Shown: positions 1-18,959 of the stretch, in pieces
Position numbering within the stretch: the stretch's first letter is position 1
Layout: the number at the start of each line of letters is the position of its first letter
IMG/VR virus record: IMGVR_UViG_3300046314_000016
Span: 1-24,126 of that record
Length of the DNA stretch: 24,126 bases
Origin: a virus
Direction: 5' to 3' (one strand)
Made by a program: the position numbers and the translations under genes
Notes under the pieces: generated by a model
Databases searched by the model: none
Told to the model about the DNA's origin: nothing
Seen by the model: only the letters and a program-made list of their open reading frames with translations

Positions 1-1454
1 GTCTTAAGCATGGCTTCGCGGCGAGCCTGTTCGGCCTTGGCAGCGGCACCAGACGCAACGGCGTAGAGTTGATTGACGAACGTGTTAAGCGGCATGGGCT
101 GCGAGACAGCCTTGTACTGGCTGGTGGCTGGGTCGAGGGCTACCTCGACAAACCCCTGGGGGGTCTGGGCGTACTGAACCCGAGCAGCTGTTGCCAACTG
201 CGACAGAGCTTGTTGGTTGCCGCCAATGGCTTGCGCTGAAGCGTCTACGAGCTGAGCAGAGTAACCACCAAAGCGGACCTTGTTGGCTTCCTCTCGGATT
301 TTGCTGGCGACTTCTGCAGTAGGTGCCATAGGCAACATGCGATTGAGTTCCTGCAGGCGCAACTGGGCCATGCGAGATTCCTGCTGGGCACGGGCCGACA
401 ACTGCGTAACTTGCTCAGGCGTGAACTGGACTTCGGGGATGGCAGGGGCTGCGGCGGGAGCAGCAGCTTGTGTGGGCGCAGCAGCTTGAGCGGGCGTAGG
501 AGCTGCACCGGGTGTATACCCACCGTTCTCGAACTGGAACTTGGTCGCAGCGATGCGCTGCAAGACCTGCGGGTCTTGCATGTTGAGTGGAGTGTTAGGC
601 GCTACGCCAAGCTGCTTTGCCACAAAGTTGACATAGCTCGCTGTACCAGCAGGTGTATTGCCCGGCGCATTGGCAGGAGACCACTTGCCCACGATCTGCT
701 CGACCGTGTTCAGCCCTTGCTGTCCATAAACTGACAACAAGCCAACTGCTGCACGTTCACCGGCAGCAGCGTCTGGGAAGATCGCAAAGCCTTGCGCGTC
801 AGCGCCTACGGCACCCATGCGGGTAGCGAAAGGACTGGCGATGATGTTGCCGGGGTTGTTGTTGCGAACGCCACGAGGAGCGTTGGCTGCTGGCGCGGTA
901 GGCGCAGTGGACCCAGTATTCAGTCGCTGGAGTTCCGCGAGGCGCTGGGCCTCTGTCATGGTAGCCGTAGCTGCGGCACCTTGTGGATTGGCAAAACGCT
1001 GCATGCGTGCGTCACGCAAAGCCGCCATATTCTGGGGCCCAGTCATGCCAGCTGGAGGAGTGTAACCAGCTACGTTCTCGTAGGGCGCAGTGCCCGGAGT
1101 ACCAGCTTTCGACAAGCGAACAGCCTCAGCAGTCGATTGATCAGGCGCGGCTGGGCGCATAAACGCAGACGGACCAGCAGCAGCAGGTGCTGCGGGAGCG
1201 GCAGAAGTAGCTTGTGTAGGAGATGGGAACGCAGGAGCCATAGCGCCGGGAGTCCCACCGGGCAGCGCCTCTGGACCCTCCACAGGCTGCATCAAACCTT
1301 GGCGGTACTGCTCGTTGCGCACGGACAAAGCATCTGCAGCACGCATGCGCTCCAGTGTACGGGCTTGGGTTTCCGCTGCGCGTTCTTCGTCAGCGAACTG
1401 ACGACCAGCAGTCTGGGCGGCGCTCAGGCCACCGATCAAAGATTGGATATTCAT
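1..1454 (-). CDS. Ejection/virion protein with internal peptidoglycan-hydrolase-like domain (3' end outside window)
   Basis: Translating the minus strand from the ATG at 1454 gives 484 residues with no stop before the window edge, so the C-terminus is missing. The start overlaps the stop of the upstream gene as ATGA. Residues 1-50 are charged and probably helical. Residues 60-190 are Ala/Pro-rich linker. Residues about 194-312 form a compact domain beginning with GVRNNNPGNI (195-204), followed by an aromatic/aliphatic core and an FVAKQLGV segment. This arrangement is typical of phage virion-associated muramidase or transglycosylase-like domains (family knowledge). Residues 313-345 are another Ala/Pro linker, then a Gln/Ala-rich helical part. 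The place after two other low-complexity virion proteins suggests an ejected internal protein that opens the peptidoglycan during DNA entry (inference). Enzymatic activity is not proven from the motif alone. Confidence 0.8.
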   Translation of the reverse strand, partial: MNIQSLIGGLSAAQTAGRQFADEERAAETQARTLERMRAADALSVRNEQYRQGLMQPVEGPEALPGGTPGAMAPAFPSPTQATSAAPAAPAAAGPSAFMRPAAPDQSTAEAVRLSKAGTPGTAPYENVAGYTPPAGMTGPQNMAALRDARMQRFANPQGAAATATMTEAQRLAELQRLNTGSTAPTAPAANAPRGVRNNNPGNIIASPFATRMGAVGADAQGFAIFPDAAAGERAAVGLLSVYGQQGLNTVEQIVGKWSPANAPGNTPAGTASYVNFVAKQLGVAPNTPLNMQDPQVLQRIAATKFQFENGGYTPGAAPTPAQAAAPTQAAAPAAAPAIPEVQFTPEQVTQLSARAQQESRMAQLRLQELNRMLPMAPTAEVASKIREEANKVRFGGYSAQLVDASAQAIGGNQQALSQLATAARVQYAQTPQGFVEVALDPATSQYKAVSQPMPLNTFVNQLYAVASGAAAKAEQARREAMLK

Positions 1455-2677
1455 CTGGCTGTTGCTCCTGCGGCTTTGGTGCGAGCGTCCTGCACGGTCT
1501 TGGTCGGCTGGCCGAGGTAGTCCTCGAGCAGTTTTTGCAGTTGTGCAGATGTCAACGCGCTTTGATTCTTGGTCGTTTCAGCCTGACGAGCGTAATAGTC
1601 CGCCACAGAGCTGGATGGAGTGTACGACAAACCGGGCACGGTAGAAGTGAGCCCCTTAGCCGAAGTCAGTGCCTGCTGCTGAGCTGCGCGGCCTGTGTCC
1701 AGACCCTTGGTGTACGCAGTAGTCGCAGCGGTGGAACCACCCAGCCGAGCACGGCGAACTTCGGCGTCGATAGCCGCTTGACTCAACCCGCGACGGGCCA
1801 AGTCCTTGCGCAGATTCTCAACCCCACGCTGGGTAGCGGCGGTCTGCTGGGCCATACCACGAATAGCCATTTCCTGTGGGTTGTATAGGCTGCGTGCTTC
1901 GTCAAACGACTGCTGAGCTTGTTGGTTAGATATACCAGCCATGCGTTGGTTCTCTGCAAGGGCTGCCATCTGCGACTGCTGGGCTTGCTCGCGCATTGCC
2001 AGTTCGCGCTGGATTTGCTGGTCGGCTACGCCTTGCTGTTGTCTGGCTGCGCTTGCGTTGCGTTGCCCTGCGAGAGCGCTCACCAAGCCGGAACCCAGCT
2101 TGACAACTTCGGCGTTTTCTTTGCCCCACGCTCCGAGTTCTTTGAGGCCAGCGTTTGCACGCTGCAAGAGCCCCGGCTGCTGCGCAGTCTGACCAAAACC
2201 GCCTTGCATAGCAGCAGTGGTGCCGCCCATACCACCCGTGATACCAGCCTGAGAAGGCGCTGCGTCAGTGGCGAACTGAGTGCTGCCCGAAGGGCCCATG
2301 GTAATGCCGGGCTGCGCACCTGCACCTGCACCGAAAGTGGCCGCGTACGCAGGTGCTGCGTTGACTGGGAGCCCGGGGGTAGTGTCGCTGAAGCCACCTT
2401 GCATGGCTGCAGTCGTGCCCGCACCAGTGTTAAACGTGTAGTCCCAGAATGGAGTTTGGGCAGGGGCAGTTGCGCCTTGCTGCGGCATGAACTGGGTGTC
2501 ACCAAACCCGTCCTGAAAAGCGCCGGAAGAGCCAGCGTTAGGCTGGTATGTGTTGTCCGCAGTGCCCTGCTGGTCAGCAAACTGCGTGTAGTCCACAGCA
2601 GGGGCGGTGTAGTCCGCCTGAGGGGCGGTGTAGTCAACACCGTCGTTGTACCCGTACCAGTCGATAAATTCATCCAT
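1451..2677 (-). CDS. Putative internal virion (ejection) protein, Gln/Ala-rich
   Basis: This 408-residue protein starts at the ATG at 2677. AAGGAG lies eight bases before that ATG, whereas the in-frame TTG at 2683 is too close to it. Residues 12-33 hold three DYT[AQ] units. Residues 34-170 are a low-complexity Gly/Thr/Gln/Pro region with two exact copies of GTTAAMQGGF (87-96 and 152-161) and a looser copy GAFQDGFGDT (52-61). Residues 170-345 are Gln/Ala/Arg-rich and should be long helices or coiled coil. No enzyme motif or signal peptide is visible. It lies between two other ejection-type proteins and shares the decapeptide with the upstream one. I infer a head-internal protein ejected with the DNA, comparable in role but not recognisably in sequence to T7 gp14-gp16 or P22 gp7/gp16/gp20. 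Confidence 0.75.
   Translation of the reverse strand: MDEFIDWYGYNDGVDYTAPQADYTAPAVDYTQFADQQGTADNTYQPNAGSSGAFQDGFGDTQFMPQQGATAPAQTPFWDYTFNTGAGTTAAMQGGFSDTTPGLPVNAAPAYAATFGAGAGAQPGITMGPSGSTQFATDAAPSQAGITGGMGGTTAAMQGGFGQTAQQPGLLQRANAGLKELGAWGKENAEVVKLGSGLVSALAGQRNASAARQQQGVADQQIQRELAMREQAQQSQMAALAENQRMAGISNQQAQQSFDEARSLYNPQEMAIRGMAQQTAATQRGVENLRKDLARRGLSQAAIDAEVRRARLGGSTAATTAYTKGLDTGRAAQQQALTSAKGLTSTVPGLSYTPSSSVADYYARQAETTKNQSALTSAQLQKLLEDYLGQPTKTVQDARTKAAGATAR
2195..2224 (-). repeat. Shared decapeptide repeat, copy 1
   Basis: This segment encodes GTTAAMQGGF (residues 152-161 of the ejection protein at 1451-2677). The same ten residues are encoded at 2390-2419 and at 3430-3459. Confidence 0.85.
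2390..2419 (-). repeat. Shared decapeptide repeat, copy 2
   Basis: Encodes GTTAAMQGGF (residues 87-96 of the protein at 1451-2677). At the DNA level it differs from the other copies mainly at third codon positions, so selection appears to act on the peptide. Confidence 0.85.
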
Positions 2678-2679
2678 GA

Positions 2680-4245
2680 TCAAGACTCCTTCGGCACGTC
2701 TGCGTACCGGCGTAACAGATTATCGAAGAATTCCTGCCCTTTTGCGCGTACAACATGCTCAGGAATGATGTATTCACCGTTGGCTACGCGCACAGGCTCA
2801 CCAGTTGACTCATTGACCGTACCGATCGAGTCTGAGCGCCCAGTGCCGGGGCCACGAATCATGCCACCACGATTCATGCCGGGAGCTGCAGGCGTTACAG
2901 CAGCTGCGCTTGTGGGAGGTACTTGCCCAGCAGGTGTGCTTTGCGCCAAGGCACGTGCCGTAGCAATGATCTTCGTGACGACAGACGGGTCGTACGCTGC
3001 TGGCAAGGGAGTCATTCCCTGCGCAGCAACAAACTGGCGCAGTTGTGGGTACAGTGATGGGTTGAACATGGCAGCTTCTGCCACACGGCCCATGGTTGTA
3101 ACTTCTTCGGGAGTCAACTCACCAGAATCCATGAGCTGCTGGGCACGAGCGACGATGCTCTGGCGCATTTGTGGGTTACGCAAAATGGCGTTCACGCGGT
3201 CGTTGACCGACGCGTTTGAGGGTACAGCACCCATAGCGATGCGACCACCTCCAGCAAAACCCATGGCGAGCAAAGGGCCTCCATCAGCGTAGCGCTTCGT
3301 GATGCCGGGGCGTTCTCCGATGAGACCGCCGTCAGCCCAGCCGCCGACCCCTGAATTATCTGCAGCAGTTGAATCCGCAGGCGAGCCAACGCTATCTGTA
3401 CCGGTGTCCGTACCTGTAGTGCCGGATCCAAAGCCTCCTTGCATAGCTGCAGTCGTGCCCTGAGTTCCTTGGCCAACCGTAGTGCCTTGGGAAGTCGGCC
3501 CCATGTCAACAACAGGAATGGCCTCTTGCTGTTCCTGCGTGTTGGGTGTGCTGAACGCGTTAACAACTGTACCAAGCCCAATCTGCCCTATTGTTCCCAG
3601 CGCGTCCATTGCAACACCGCCTGATGCAGAGCTACCAAGCGCTGAACCTACGATACCGCCAATAGGACCAGCCACAGCATTTCCTATTAACCCACCAACC
3701 GTAGAGCCTAATTGCGAATTACTCACAGAACCAGTCGACAACCCGGTAACACCAAGTCCGAGAGCAGCTGCGCCAAGTGGAGAAGCGCCCATTAGGCCTG
3801 CTCCGAAAGCTGCTGCGGGGCCAAGGTTGCCCTGAGAAGCTGCAGCCACAGAGCCGAGTGCGCCAGAGGCCATACCGAGTCCTAGGTTGCCAGTAAGCCC
3901 GGCAGCCAAACCACCAAGAGACGCAACCGTGCCCAAGCCTGCCGCAGTACCGGGCGAAACGCCACCGCCAGTGGTGGCACCAGTGGCTACACTCTCGCCG
4001 CCCCCAAAGCCAGACTCTGTCGGGGTCTGCACAAAGCCGGACTCAGGCGTCTCATACGCAGAAGCAGCAGGAGTAGAGAAGCCAGCGTTTACGTTATTCG
4101 CAGGGCGCGATGATTGCACAGTGGGGGCTTCAGGTCTGAAATAGTCGACTGCTGTGCCACGGCCTGTGCTGCCAAAATACTGCACGCCTGACGTGGGTGT
4201 CAGCCCAGCTTGTGGGTACAACGAGCGCTCAAGGGAGGAGGCCAT
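2680..4245 (-). CDS. Putative internal virion (ejection) protein with glycine-zipper region
   Basis: The 521-residue product starts at the ATG at 4245 after AAGGA. Residues 97-235 are very Gly/Ala-rich with repeated GxxxG spacing, for example GGLIGNAVAGPIGG near 184-197. Such glycine zippers pack into membranes and would suit a channel formed during DNA entry (inference). Residues 263-272 are GTTAAMQGGF, also found twice in the next gene. Residues 303-340 contain several [WYF]xxGG[hydrophobic] units (WADGGLI, YADGGPL, FAGGGRI). A further unit opens the C-terminal block: GGMIRGPGTGRSDSI at 460-474 followed by GEYIIP at 490-495. That block is a familiar ending of phage ejection or tape-measure-like proteins (family knowledge). 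No catalytic motif is visible. The tail-end position fits a head-internal or tail-tip role. Confidence 0.75.
   Translation of the reverse strand: MASSLERSLYPQAGLTPTSGVQYFGSTGRGTAVDYFRPEAPTVQSSRPANNVNAGFSTPAASAYETPESGFVQTPTESGFGGGESVATGATTGGGVSPGTAAGLGTVASLGGLAAGLTGNLGLGMASGALGSVAAASQGNLGPAAAFGAGLMGASPLGAAALGLGVTGLSTGSVSNSQLGSTVGGLIGNAVAGPIGGIVGSALGSSASGGVAMDALGTIGQIGLGTVVNAFSTPNTQEQQEAIPVVDMGPTSQGTTVGQGTQGTTAAMQGGFGSGTTGTDTGTDSVGSPADSTAADNSGVGGWADGGLIGERPGITKRYADGGPLLAMGFAGGGRIAMGAVPSNASVNDRVNAILRNPQMRQSIVARAQQLMDSGELTPEEVTTMGRVAEAAMFNPSLYPQLRQFVAAQGMTPLPAAYDPSVVTKIIATARALAQSTPAGQVPPTSAAAVTPAAPGMNRGGMIRGPGTGRSDSIGTVNESTGEPVRVANGEYIIPEHVVRAKGQEFFDNLLRRYADVPKES
3430..3459 (-). repeat. Shared decapeptide repeat, copy 3 (in the neighbouring gene)
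   Basis: Encodes GTTAAMQGGF (residues 263-272 of the ejection protein at 2680-4245), followed by a Gly/Thr-rich GSGTTGTDTGTD stretch. The presence of the same decapeptide in two adjacent genes suggests duplication, recombination or a common binding function. Confidence 0.85.
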
Positions 4246-4246
4246 C

Positions 4247-4594
4247 TTAGTTCCTTACGTTCTGCAAGAGCGCATTGAGCGCATTCTGAATGTTGGCGAC
4301 ATCGACAGCAAGCTGCTGCATGTCATTAAGCAATTTTACATAGTCGCTGCGTGCAGGGACATCAATGGGTCCACCACTCGTGGTGATTGTGTAATAGTCT
4401 CCGCGAGCGGACAACTGCTTCATGACTTGCCGGTCCGCAGGCTCGACGACGACGGAGTCATTTGTTACTACGCGCCCGGGGCCACGCTGTCCCAGCATGA
4501 TCTCGATATTTTCCTTCATTGCGGACAGCACGTCATACTGCCACTGTGGAATCTGCTCCGAAGGGATTGCAGGGATACCTTGGAACTTAGGCAT
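4247..4594 (-). CDS. Small phage structural-module protein, function unknown
   Basis: This 115-residue protein is best started at the ATG at 4594, which shares one base with the stop of the upstream nozzle-like gene (TGATG). A TTG one codon upstream is possible but less likely. The N-terminus is Pro-rich (QGIPAIPSEQIPQW). The centre has mixed polar sequence with a YYTITTSGG strand, and residues 85-115 form a Leu/Asn-rich helix that could be a coiled coil. I do not recognise a named family. Its place between the tail nozzle and the ejection proteins suggests a small virion or assembly protein, for example one forming a tail plug or needle-like stalk. That role is inference only. Confidence 0.75.
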   Translation of the reverse strand: MPKFQGIPAIPSEQIPQWQYDVLSAMKENIEIMLGQRGPGRVVTNDSVVVEPADRQVMKQLSARGDYYTITTSGGPIDVPARSDYVKLLNDMQQLAVDVANIQNALNALLQNVRN

Positions 4595-6627
4595 CAAGCA
4601 CCTCTCAGACCAGACATGGTCTCAGCCAAGTGAATCGCCCGAACCCGTACGTTGGTCGCTACTCGAATCTCGAACGTGTCTGCGCGGTACCCTGCCGGTA
4701 AGCGGAACGCGTCGTCGTTTTGACGAGATGCGGTGTACACCAACTTTTTGTTGACATACAGCTGAAACGTAGCCGCCCGATAGCTTTGTTTGAACAAGGA
4801 TAGGTTGCTACCTGCAACGACATGCTGGTTCACAAGCGCCGTACCCAGTGCTCCAAAGCCATCTAGTCCAGAGTCAATAATGGCTTGGTTGGCTGCAAGG
4901 ATCGCGGCATTTTCTGCCTCAAGTGCTGCTTCGTCTTCGTCGCTTTGGTAGTCCGCGATAACCCGTGCTGCGCCCATGTTGATAGGCTGCTTGGTCGTGA
5001 AAACCTTGGACTTCCAGTCAAGGATCGCGTTACCAATGTTTGGCGAATTCCATAGGTTCACAACGCCGTCATGCGCGTAATAAAACCGATCGGTCTTGGC
5101 TTCGTAGTACGCAGCTGAAAAAACAATGTCCGTCTGCACCAGATGGCCGCCAACCTGATCATTGCGCTCAAATAGAAACGTGTGCGTGTTGTCAGAACCA
5201 AAATATCGGCCACGGTAGTATGCGCCGTAGACCATAGAAGGCGTCACCGCAGCCGACCAAGTGGACCAACTGTGCACGTTCTTCGTCAGGTAGTCTGTAC
5301 CAATCGTCGTTGAGTACACAGCCAAACCGCCAGCAGATGCCCACACCACACCAAAGCCGATGTTGATGATGGACCGTTTGGACACGCAGGGCAAGATGTA
5401 GTCCGTACGAGCGCGAGAGATGGCTTCTGGGTTGTTGCCGTCAAACTTCCATGGGGTGCGGTCAGTCAGTGCCAACAGCGTGGTGCCATAGGCACCAAGG
5501 CCGACGATCTGTGCGTCAACCTGCTGGCGGTACTTGATAGGCCACGCGTGTGGGTGCCCGGGCTCCGAGAAGCAAACCGTGTTGCCGAAAAAGCCCACCA
5601 TCATGCCGTTGTGGATGGCCATCAGGCCTTGCATCGTGGGTTCAGGAGCGTCGTAGTCCTCAGACTCCAGCACTGTATCCAGTGAAGACACATCAATGTC
5701 GTCGACGAAACTCGTGGTGCCGAGGGCTATCTCGCCCACGCGAAAATACACAGTGCCTGACACAGTGGCTACAGTGCGGTAGACACGCACCTTCATGTTG
5801 GTTGTCTGATACCCAGTGCCGTGTGTCCACGAAGCGGGCAAGCCCGAGACGGTAACAGTCTGGCCTTCCTTCACAAAGATGGTAGCCGATGGCTCAGATG
5901 GCACAGACTCCTCATCCCAGTCAGTCACATACGTAAAAACGTAGTTGCGTGGCCCAGTGACACCCGCAAGATCAACACGGCCTGCTGTATCTGCTGTAGC
6001 CGACTCAGCGGTACCAAAATTGAAGTAGCTGAACGTGGTGCTGTCGATGACTGTTACCTGCACATTGGTCAGGTTGTATCCAGTGCCGCCAAACGACGTT
6101 GTGGTGACATAGTCACCTGTTGTCAGTCCATGCGCAGCGCTTGTGACGATCGTTGCCGTGTTGCCCGCATCGCGTGAGCGCGTGACAGAAGACTTCTGTG
6201 TGAACGCCGTCGCTGTAGCGATAGGCACAGCCGTGGGCAATGGGAGACCGAGGATGTAGCTCGCAGTAGGGTACTGGGCACCGCTGGTTGCAAGATCATA
6301 GTTCGTTGCCTTGGGTGCGCCATCGCCTGTGAAGTACACGCGCTGCGTGGTGTCACCCTCGATTTGGGACGTAGCAACGTCAACGTCTGTTATCCAGTGC
6401 AGCCACTTATTGTCTCCAGTGATGGGGTCAACCAGAGGATAGATGGTCTGCACTACGCCAGTCTTGTCCAGTGTAGCAATTGCCTCAGCCCTGCGGTACG
6501 GCAGCAAGTCCCCAGACGACAAGTCGAGGTTGTACGCGTACTGGGCTACCGTGTCCGGTAACAGCTCAGGACTGATCTTTGGCGCTTCCCCAAAGAAGCG
6601 CTGGATTTTTAGAGCGACACCGGCCAC
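4594..6627 (-). CDS. Tail nozzle / stabilisation-type structural protein
   Basis: The 677-residue product starts at GTG 6627, preceded by GAGGGATAGG. The N-terminus (IQRFFGEAPKISPELLPDT, then a DLSSGDLLPYRR segment) and the C-terminus (GYRADTFEI followed by AIHLAETMSGL) match in style a large family of podovirus tail proteins of 600-800 residues. These are usually annotated as tail nozzle, tubular protein B-like or stabilisation protein (family knowledge). The body alternates beta-strand-rich segments, with a fibronectin-like stretch around residues 225-320 (YVFTYVTDWDEESVPSE) and propeller-like repeats in the middle. There is no transmembrane segment or signal peptide. It would form the distal tail tube below the adaptor and carry the fibres. 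The exact subfamily (T7 gp12 versus P22 gp10-like) cannot be settled by eye. Confidence 0.75.
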   Translation of the reverse strand: MAGVALKIQRFFGEAPKISPELLPDTVAQYAYNLDLSSGDLLPYRRAEAIATLDKTGVVQTIYPLVDPITGDNKWLHWITDVDVATSQIEGDTTQRVYFTGDGAPKATNYDLATSGAQYPTASYILGLPLPTAVPIATATAFTQKSSVTRSRDAGNTATIVTSAAHGLTTGDYVTTTSFGGTGYNLTNVQVTVIDSTTFSYFNFGTAESATADTAGRVDLAGVTGPRNYVFTYVTDWDEESVPSEPSATIFVKEGQTVTVSGLPASWTHGTGYQTTNMKVRVYRTVATVSGTVYFRVGEIALGTTSFVDDIDVSSLDTVLESEDYDAPEPTMQGLMAIHNGMMVGFFGNTVCFSEPGHPHAWPIKYRQQVDAQIVGLGAYGTTLLALTDRTPWKFDGNNPEAISRARTDYILPCVSKRSIINIGFGVVWASAGGLAVYSTTIGTDYLTKNVHSWSTWSAAVTPSMVYGAYYRGRYFGSDNTHTFLFERNDQVGGHLVQTDIVFSAAYYEAKTDRFYYAHDGVVNLWNSPNIGNAILDWKSKVFTTKQPINMGAARVIADYQSDEDEAALEAENAAILAANQAIIDSGLDGFGALGTALVNQHVVAGSNLSLFKQSYRAATFQLYVNKKLVYTASRQNDDAFRLPAGYRADTFEIRVATNVRVRAIHLAETMSGLRGA

Positions 6628-17730: not shown

Positions 17731-17758
17731 ACTATACATCATCGTTAGCGCGTGTCAA
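17731..17758 (-). promoter_or_regulatory. Near-consensus sigma70 promoter for the capsid genes
   Basis: On the minus strand TTGACA (17753-17758) is a perfect -35 box. After a 16-base spacer TATAGT (17731-17736) matches five of six -10 bases. It overlaps the last codons and stop of the repeat-protein gene and lies 30 bases before the ATG at 17701. Predicted start of transcription is near 17724. It would drive the small protein, scaffold, capsid and decoration genes with host RNA polymerase. Confidence 0.7.
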
Positions 17759-18959
17759 CACGCCTGCGTAATCTTCCGTGTGCAGCAATAGCCACAACAT
17801 GGCTTGGCGGGAGCCTGCGTTCTCCGCGTGCAGCGCAGAAATGCGCATCTGTGACACTGAAGCTACCGCGTGGGCGTGCCGTGCTTTGAGCCCCTGCGTC
17901 GACGGTGCCAAGCATCACAACGCTGCGCCCGCCGTACACTTTCGCAGTGCTGTTCTCTGACAGAGCCTGCTTGTACGACACCCGGCCTAGAACAGCAGTG
18001 ACCGCCACACCGACAGCCGTTGCCACATGTACAGTCGTAACAGCTTGTGTGCGTTTGGCCACACTCGACCCGCCACAGCCGTAGCCGATATACTGCGAAG
18101 TTGTCTTGACTTTGCTACCAGACACGCGGGCCCAGCCGTCATACTCGACAATGGTATTCGCAGGGTTGATAACTACCAGCGCTGGAGAGTTCGCGCTGGT
18201 CTTGGCTGTACCACCATGGCAGAACACCTTTGCATCCACGATGCCGCGAACGGTCAAGCGGCGTGGCCTACGCTCTTGTTTCTGCCCAATATTTTCGACA
18301 ACGCCAGCCGCCGCAAATGTATCAAGCCCAGTCTCTGAAGTTGACAGCGCACCGGTGATATGGACAACGCCAGACCCCACGAGAGTATCTGCTCCATCGG
18401 TGGTGGCCATGTCGCCTTCCACCAGCACAGCGCCTTGTCCTGCACCTGTGTCTGCACCTTCAGACGCGTTCTCGTAGCCATGAATCAACACGTCGCCAAG
18501 GACGTAGATAGTGTCAATGGCTTCAGACGTTGCAAGTGCACCAGCGACCTGCACTGCCCCGGATACTGCCGCTGTGTCACTCGCGCCTTCAGTGGCGGAA
18601 AATACCGCATATACCTCGACGACACCAGCGCCTGAGAAAACATCTTGACCGGCTTCAGACACGGCCAACACGCCAGTCACAACGGCTACGCCTACGCCGG
18701 CGAACGTATCGTTACCAACCTCGGAGACGTTCAGTGTGCCCGAGATAACTACATCACCGGTGCCAGCGAACGTGTCGCTGCCTATCTCGGAGACGCTCAG
18801 TGCGCCTGAGACAACTACGTCGCCAACACCAGCGAACGTATCAACACTCTCTGTAGCCGCGAGCTCGGCTGCGACGTACCCATTCCCTGCGGTGGCTACG
18901 ATTTGCGCACCGACAAGCTGCTCCGATAGGGAGCCTGTGTTGAGTCCGTCTACAGCCAT
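17745..18959 (-). CDS. Virion-type protein with nine ~22-residue beta repeats
   Basis: The product has 404 residues and starts at the ATG at 18959. Residues 35-225 hold nine tandem units of 21 or 22 residues with consensus DTFAGxGxVxVxGxLxxSExG; the unit-opening Asp falls at 40, 62, 84, 106, 128, 149, 170, 191 and 213. Alternating hydrophobic strands and turns suggest a beta-solenoid or stacked beta-roll. Residues 226-404 are a different region, basic at the start (QERRPRR), with four Cys and a strongly Arg-rich final 50 residues. The function is not known. Its position between portal-side head proteins and the scaffold suggests a virion or head fibre protein. The odd basic tail might reflect drift near the overlapping promoter, but the frame is continuous. 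Confidence 0.75.
   Translation of the reverse strand: MAVDGLNTGSLSEQLVGAQIVATAGNGYVAAELAATESVDTFAGVGDVVVSGALSVSEIGSDTFAGTGDVVISGTLNVSEVGNDTFAGVGVAVVTGVLAVSEAGQDVFSGAGVVEVYAVFSATEGASDTAAVSGAVQVAGALATSEAIDTIYVLGDVLIHGYENASEGADTGAGQGAVLVEGDMATTDGADTLVGSGVVHITGALSTSETGLDTFAAAGVVENIGQKQERRPRRLTVRGIVDAKVFCHGGTAKTSANSPALVVINPANTIVEYDGWARVSGSKVKTTSQYIGYGCGGSSVAKRTQAVTTVHVATAVGVAVTAVLGRVSYKQALSENSTAKVYGGRSVVMLGTVDAGAQSTARPRGSFSVTDAHFCAARGERRLPPSHVVAIAAHGRLRRRVDTR
18285..18842 (-). repeat. Tandem 63/66-bp coding repeats
   Basis: Nine units encode residues 40-225 of the repeat protein. The first three (about 18645-18842) are the most alike at the DNA level, with a GCGAACGT[AG]TC core recurring every 66 bases. 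Later copies have diverged. The similarity gradient suggests unit duplication at the 5' end of the gene. Confidence 0.75.

Follow-up and report, generated by a model that had tools for sequence, protein, structure and literature searches.

A near-invariant peptide motif in otherwise unrelated genome-delivery proteins of phages

The window examined in this study, the whole 24,126-base stretch of IMG/VR phage record IMGVR_UViG_3300046314_000016, encodes two adjacent proteins of 410 and 521 residues in which the decapeptide GTTAAMQGGF recurs. Our analyses indicated that this peptide belongs to a new class of short linear motif in genome-delivery proteins. The motif occurs in proteins and phages that are unrelated in sequence, its codons vary freely, and copies are gained and lost; wherever a class can be named for a carrier protein, the motif is confined to proteins of genome delivery. 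To our knowledge, no short linear motif has been known in ejection or tape measure proteins. The presence of a near-invariant peptide of ∼11 residues in injected proteins that are otherwise unrelated suggests a docking or signal peptide for genome delivery that has not been described before.

Conservation and spread of the peptide

The copies claimed in an earlier note on this DNA, two in the 410-residue protein (counted there as 408 residues, from an internal ATG), one in the 521-residue protein and a looser one, were all located in the window (Table 1). In pairwise comparisons of the three exact copies, 3, 4 and 6 of the 10 codons differed and every change was silent. The longest word common to the two proteins was 11 residues, whereas 2000 composition shuffles reached at most 7, and the longest internal repeat of the 410-residue protein was 10 residues, with a shuffle maximum of 8 (2000 shuffles). 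The silent variation, the restriction of identity to the peptide itself and the recurrence in unrelated phages described below indicated that the peptide is kept by selection, and they bore out the earlier proposal of a conserved peptide rather than a recent DNA copy.

The spread of the motif was measured by codon-degenerate scans of IMG/VR, with the reversed peptide, which has the same letters, as a control. The exact scan detected 8 matches in 7 contigs, all within Ala/Gly-rich proteins like those of the window. With NTN at position 6 and position 7 left free, 17 contigs were found; the match fell in a protein of this kind in 16 of them and, with a single exception, these had Met at position 6. 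The reversed peptide was found in 4 contigs, in 3 distinct and unrelated proteins. A wider scan with G[TS][TS]xA[MILF]xGGFG detected 32 contigs, 24 of which were judged to be real and 8 to be due to chance on the basis of reading frame, Met or Phe at position 6 (Ile in L035) and protein type. The consensus was G-[TS]-[TS]-x-A-[MF]-x-G-G-F-[G/S/A], often followed by D/E-[T/G]-[A/T]. The contig G003 had GTTEAMSGGFG and GTTPAMSGGFG in two more proteins adjoining its first motif protein, and these two copies did not come from a motif scan of the collection. The Phe class (GSSGAFGGGFG) was thin, being in frame in four of 8 contigs (L007, L092, L093 and L121) and not in the other four.

Several sets of matches were set aside. 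Those in L036, L048, L086, L087, L089, L090, L091, L094 and L097 were judged to be chance matches. The A-for-T variant GAAAAMQGGF, in which both T positions differ, was not counted; it sits in a Gly-rich phage protein of L011, L013 and L014, three near-identical contigs. The remaining A-for-T variants lay in unrelated proteins, off frame or in coiled regions of tape measure proteins. A possible Phe variant was observed in L121 (∼3946 to 4061, minus strand), where GSSSAFGGGFG occurs twice in frame, at a spacing of 28 residues, in another Gly/Ser-rich phage protein. Two scans of bacterial and archaeal genomes (84,980 species) yielded 0 and 2 matches and no credible protein; the two matches (L104 and L105) were mutually homologous, off frame and antisense to another open reading frame (ORF), beside an ORF named by eye as SecA-like. 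A tblastn search of 50,697 phage records gave no match for the window's two proteins, nor for two further motif proteins, and searches of the PDB with a profile of the motif and with the 410-residue protein returned nothing usable.

Among the 984 ORFs of 27 contigs, there were 34 full matches of G[TS][TS]xA[MILF]x[GD]GF and none that was one residue short, and the reversed motif gave 0 full and 3 one-short matches in the same ORFs. Because these contigs had been picked by the motif, nearly every one was bound to contain a full match, but the absence of decayed copies does not follow from this choice. When the motif was masked, BLASTP placed 29 motif proteins from the 27 contigs in 14 groups (13 if the fragment G012 joins G019/G026). 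In an anchored comparison of 13 representatives, identity was 0.71 to 1.00 at positions 1 to 3, 5, 6 and 8 to 11, 0.24 to 0.28 at the free positions 4 and 7 and 0.02 to 0.26 in the flanks. Third codon positions of the motif varied freely, which ruled out a mobile repeat at the DNA level.

Gly/Ala-rich, mosaic carriers of this kind might throw up such words by chance or pass them on as neutral recombination copies. The reversed control and the shuffles, the zero near-misses, the silent codon divergence, the survival of copies in the relative G029 while their flanks diverged and the emptiness of the 84,980 species' genomes but for two off-frame matches all argue against this explanation, which is largely refuted and which we regard as scarcely credible.

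Short linear motifs are 3 to 11 residues long, have few fixed positions, lie in disordered regions, recur in non-homologous proteins and bind a partner domain or enzyme. The peptide has 11 positions, nine of them constrained, in Gly/Ala-rich surroundings (G, 19%; A, 18%), and it recurs across the 14 masked groups. An AlphaFold2 model of the 410-residue protein, weak in that it was built from a two-row alignment, gave a predicted local distance difference test value of <50 and no secondary structure for residues 1 to 169, within which all of this protein's motif copies fall, and helices for residues 171 to 409.

Carrier proteins, gain and loss

Comparison with PHROG families placed five motif proteins (L035, L037, L082, L085 and L095) in phrog_598 ('DNA ejection') and one (L042) in phrog_418 ('internal virion protein'). 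One (L083), from a phage identified as a lambda-like siphophage by a tail fibre J match, was assigned to tape measure families of lambda-like type. The tape-measure-type C terminus of phrog_3547 was matched by three proteins, among them the window's 521-residue protein. L088 weakly matched the tape measure family phrog_10030 (E = 0.004), and L084 matched two families of unknown function very weakly; the other motif proteins scanned against PHROGs had no match. The families named with convincing E values were thus restricted to those of ejection, internal virion and tape measure proteins. A homologue of nozzle type was encoded close upstream of the motif gene, at a distance of a few genes, in most podophage contigs. 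A family of 120- to 142-residue proteins adjoined the motif gene or lay close to it in eight contigs (G002, G011, G013, G014, G016, G017, G021 and G024); epsilon15 gp13, annotated as acetyltransferase-like, occupies a similar place.

The motif could also be a processing site at which a protease cuts during assembly or entry. Such trimming has parallels at the N terminus of P22 gp7 and at the C terminus of lambda gpH; in the tape measure protein of the siphophage G020, the motif is in the linker that leads to the C-terminal domain, and in P22-gp7-like proteins the motif precedes the ejection domain. Up to three copies occur per protein, however, homologues without the site need no cut, and no protease gene common to the contigs was noticed, although no search was aimed at proteases. 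We consider processing quite unlikely.

Gain and loss were evident among relatives of the window. G029 was fetched by similarity to the 410-residue protein without use of the motif; its homologue of that protein (54% identical) had three copies and its homologue of the 521-residue protein one, with other residues at the free positions. G007 had two exact copies and a looser one in the homologue of the 410-residue protein and none in that of the 521-residue protein, the middle segment of which differed; in contrast to this exchanged segment, the C-terminal 220 residues of the 521-residue protein were 97.7% identical. G028 (73% identical) lacked the motif in both homologues. Absence from homologues of both proteins had been regarded by the earlier note as a sign of chance duplication; such absence did not hold overall, with 3 + 1 copies kept in G029, but G028 had lost all copies and G007 the one in the 521-residue homologue.

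Despite the lack of the motif, the structural proteins of G028 were close to those of the window, with identities of 97.8% for the head protein, 96.8% for the scaffold, 93.4% for the 677-residue tail protein and 94.3% and 92.1% for the head-tail proteins. Divergence was detected in the 448-residue fibre-region protein (51% identical) and in a 404-residue protein (50%), and the lysis genes differed. G028 therefore indicated that these near-identical structural proteins do not demand the motif, which makes the capsid, the scaffold (one of the partners suggested earlier) and the nozzle, 93 to 98% identical to those of the window, unlikely as obligate partners. The 404-residue ORF of the window (17745 to 18959, minus strand) was seen by eye to contain a degenerate repeat of ∼29 residues (SEIGSDTFAGTGDVVISGTLNV...); its G028 counterpart was 50% identical over the aligned part only, and neighbouring genes were ∼97% identical. 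The GH108 muramidase, also suggested earlier, was not well supported and was dropped as a partner: a match to it was present in 7 of 27 contigs and not in the motif-bearing G029. G028 was likewise without a match, and other motif phages lack GH108 too.

Docking of the ejection proteins to a phage partner within the virion, such as the portal, the nozzle or another core protein, would serve incorporation rather than delivery. The place of the motif genes just downstream of a nozzle-type gene in most podophage contigs, the T7-type portal model phrog_332, which matched the portal of the window and also 5 of 16 records searched, and the motif's occurrence in neighbouring proteins of one module in the window and G003 are consistent with such docking. 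Against it stand the major capsid, scaffold, nozzle and head-tail proteins of G028, 92 to 98% identical yet in a motif-free phage, and phrog_511, which matched only G007 among the 16 searched records. No protein group spanned all contigs, the largest being present in 15 of 27, and the siphophage G020 had no BLASTP-detectable protein in common with the remaining, partly fragmentary contigs. A virion partner appears unlikely to us.

Alternatively, the peptide might bind itself and hold together the ejection proteins of one phage, as a barcode whose type could change only through an exchange in all partners. The motif is carried by two or three adjacent proteins in the window, G003 and G029, and in the motif-less G028 the homologues of both window proteins contain another peptide, VGM[ED]G[ML]G[VF]G (L116, 5953 to 7218 and 4472 to 5989, plus strand). 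The score of 72 for this pair (AAADAVGMEGMGFG and AAADGVGMDGMGVG) was reached by 2 of 1000 shuffles, but the test is weak, a cross-phage control pair also giving 2 of 1000, and a coordinated peptide swap in G028 is only suggestive. In most contigs, including those of 37 to 60 kb, the motif occurs in one protein only, and G007 retains it in just one of the two proteins. Homotypic binding is, in our estimate, quite improbable. G028 also has a tandem 26-residue repeat (DYSGVSDWGSNAYDYGA...) at the place of a motif-containing 26-residue tandem repeat of G029.

The window and its ejection module

The window encodes TerL, matching the terminases of named phages, a portal of the phrog_332/SU10 type (PHROG/Pfam scan), a major head protein (phrog_267), head-tail proteins (phrog_399 and phrog_437) and a protein labeled scaffold-like from its gene position. 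Genes for proteins of 116, 521, 410 and 484 residues follow that of the 677-residue phrog_511 protein. By order and content, with the phrog_511 tail/internal-virion protein upstream and, as peptidoglycan-cutting partner, the phrog_873/phrog_7182 protein downstream, these genes constitute a podophage ejection module. The label of ejection protein given earlier to both carriers was supported for the 521-residue protein by phrog_3547, gene order and relatives. The 410-residue protein itself was not recognized by family models, with no Pfam or PHROG match at E ≤ 0.01 and hence no assignment to phrog_598 (P22-gp7-like DNA ejection).

Table 1. Motif copies and ejection-module features of the window
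Feature	Coordinates	Strand	Evidence and comparison
Copy A, GTTAAMQGGF-SDT, residues 89-98 of the 410-residue protein	2390..2419	-	Exact codon-degenerate match; kept in G007 with silent changes only
Copy B, GTTAAMQGGF-GQT, residues 154-163 of the 410-residue protein	2195..2224	-	Codon-degenerate match; kept in G007; GTTSAMQGGF-ADV in G029
Copy C, GTTAAMQGGF-GSG, residues 263-272 of the 521-residue protein	3430..3459	-	Codon-degenerate match; kept in G001; GTTSAMQGGF-ADT in G029; absent from G007 and G028
Variant copy GSSGAFQDGFGDT (GSSGAFQDGF-GDT), residues 51-63 of the 410-residue ORF	~2495..2533	-	Fits G[TS][TS]xA[MF]x[GD]GF; GSSGAFQGGF-GDA in G007
677-residue tail protein encoded upstream of the ejection module; nozzle-like from its place	4594..6627	-	phrog_511, E = 1e-125
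521-residue protein, tape-measure-type C-terminal domain (GPGTGxSDSI...GEYII)	2680..4245	-	phrog_3547, residues 335-514, E = 2.2e-9
Ala/Gly-rich middle of the 521-residue protein (~residues 90-301), holding copy C	3343..3978	-	Different sequence in G007 (alignment with G007)
410-residue protein (408 from internal ATG), N-terminal ~170 residues predicted disordered, with motif copies; C-terminal part predicted helical	1451..2683	-	
Third ejection-module protein, 484 residues, transglycosylase/endolysin-type domain, motif-free	3..1454	-	phrog_873, E = 3.8e-29; phrog_7182, E = 1.1e-7

Proposed function and comparison with known systems

Little is known of the way in which non-contractile phages bring their DNA through the envelope or of the host proteins involved, since ejection proteins diverge too quickly to be compared. 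Our tentative reading, possible rather than probable, is that the motif serves as a docking peptide, probably for a host factor. It would sit in disordered Gly/Ala-rich linkers of proteins delivered into the cell with the genome, namely, the ejection (internal virion) proteins of podophages and at least one siphophage tape measure protein. Met or Phe at position 6 and Phe at position 10 would be the likely anchors around the invariant Gly-Gly, and several copies per protein, or copies in neighbouring proteins, would add avidity. The partner, of which we are less sure than of docking itself, may be a conserved host component met during delivery, at the envelope or the face of the inner membrane. 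A host component seems the likeliest partner because no structural protein is common across morphotypes, to the extent that fragmentary contigs allow this to be judged, and because loss of the motif goes with changed fibre-region and lysis genes and not with changed virion proteins. A study of P22 SieA (PMC10883804) considers a transperiplasmic conduit of ejection or tape measure proteins likely to be common to short and long non-contractile tails and states that P22 requires host YajC; a shared host contact is plausible because of this proposed common conduit and the YajC requirement.

Several points weigh against docking to a host factor. The docking partner and a host factor common to the motif phages are both inferred. 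Conservation at positions 1, 5 and 8 to 11 of the anchored comparison is partly by construction, as the scan patterns fix several positions. The module of the motif-free G028 looks intact, and its portal lies outside its contig, so that the portal, above all virion proteins, may still be a partner. No motif was present in 12 stretches, taken from named or deposited phages, that encode homologous proteins, for which reason the motif would appear to be dispensable or host-specific.

In a further extension of the docking-peptide reading, which we regard as doubtful, phages of different morphologies would have converged on GTTxAMxGGFG as a common code that directs their injected proteins to one conserved host component needed for genome entry, and relatives could drop the code or exchange it for another. 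If this were true, the peptide type would report the entry route of a phage. The motif peptide (e.g., GTTAAMQGGFGDT) is a ready bait, and its binder would test for one common host entry factor.

A literature search that covered few subscription papers yielded no description of the peptide or of a linear motif common to ejection and tape measure proteins. The motif proteins are of the same functional class as P22 gp7, gp20 and gp16, as reflected in the phrog_598 matches. The available part of PMC10883804 reports intragenic module exchange in P22 gp20, the same kind of exchange as in the window's 521-residue protein, and mentions no such common peptide in the P22 ejection proteins. The motif protein of G015 is homologous to epsilon15 gp14 and BPP-1 Bbp12 (phrog_418), and the epsilon15 stretch examined (L103) was motif-free. 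The lambda-like tape measure protein of Curvibacter phage P26059A is 44% identical to the motif protein of G020 over 410 aligned columns and has an unrelated linker where G020 has the motif. Two side observations concern deposited phages. In Phage DSL-LC04 (L101), a 792-residue open frame matching its 'tail tape measure protein', a motif-free homologue, contains about five copies of a 17-residue tandem repeat (GMDLSSAQGTLGGPSYA). The assignment of Limnohabitans phage DC33 (L102, PQ492659.1) to the Inoviridae looks wrong, as its 39 kb encode an internal-virion-type protein of tailed phages.

Colicins carry short TolB and OmpF epitopes in disordered, Gly-rich translocation domains. The motif differs from these epitopes in its sequence, in its occurrence in phage proteins of many families and in having a partner that is so far presumed. 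What the two have in common is that a protein which has to cross the cell envelope carries a short peptide within a disordered, Gly-rich region.

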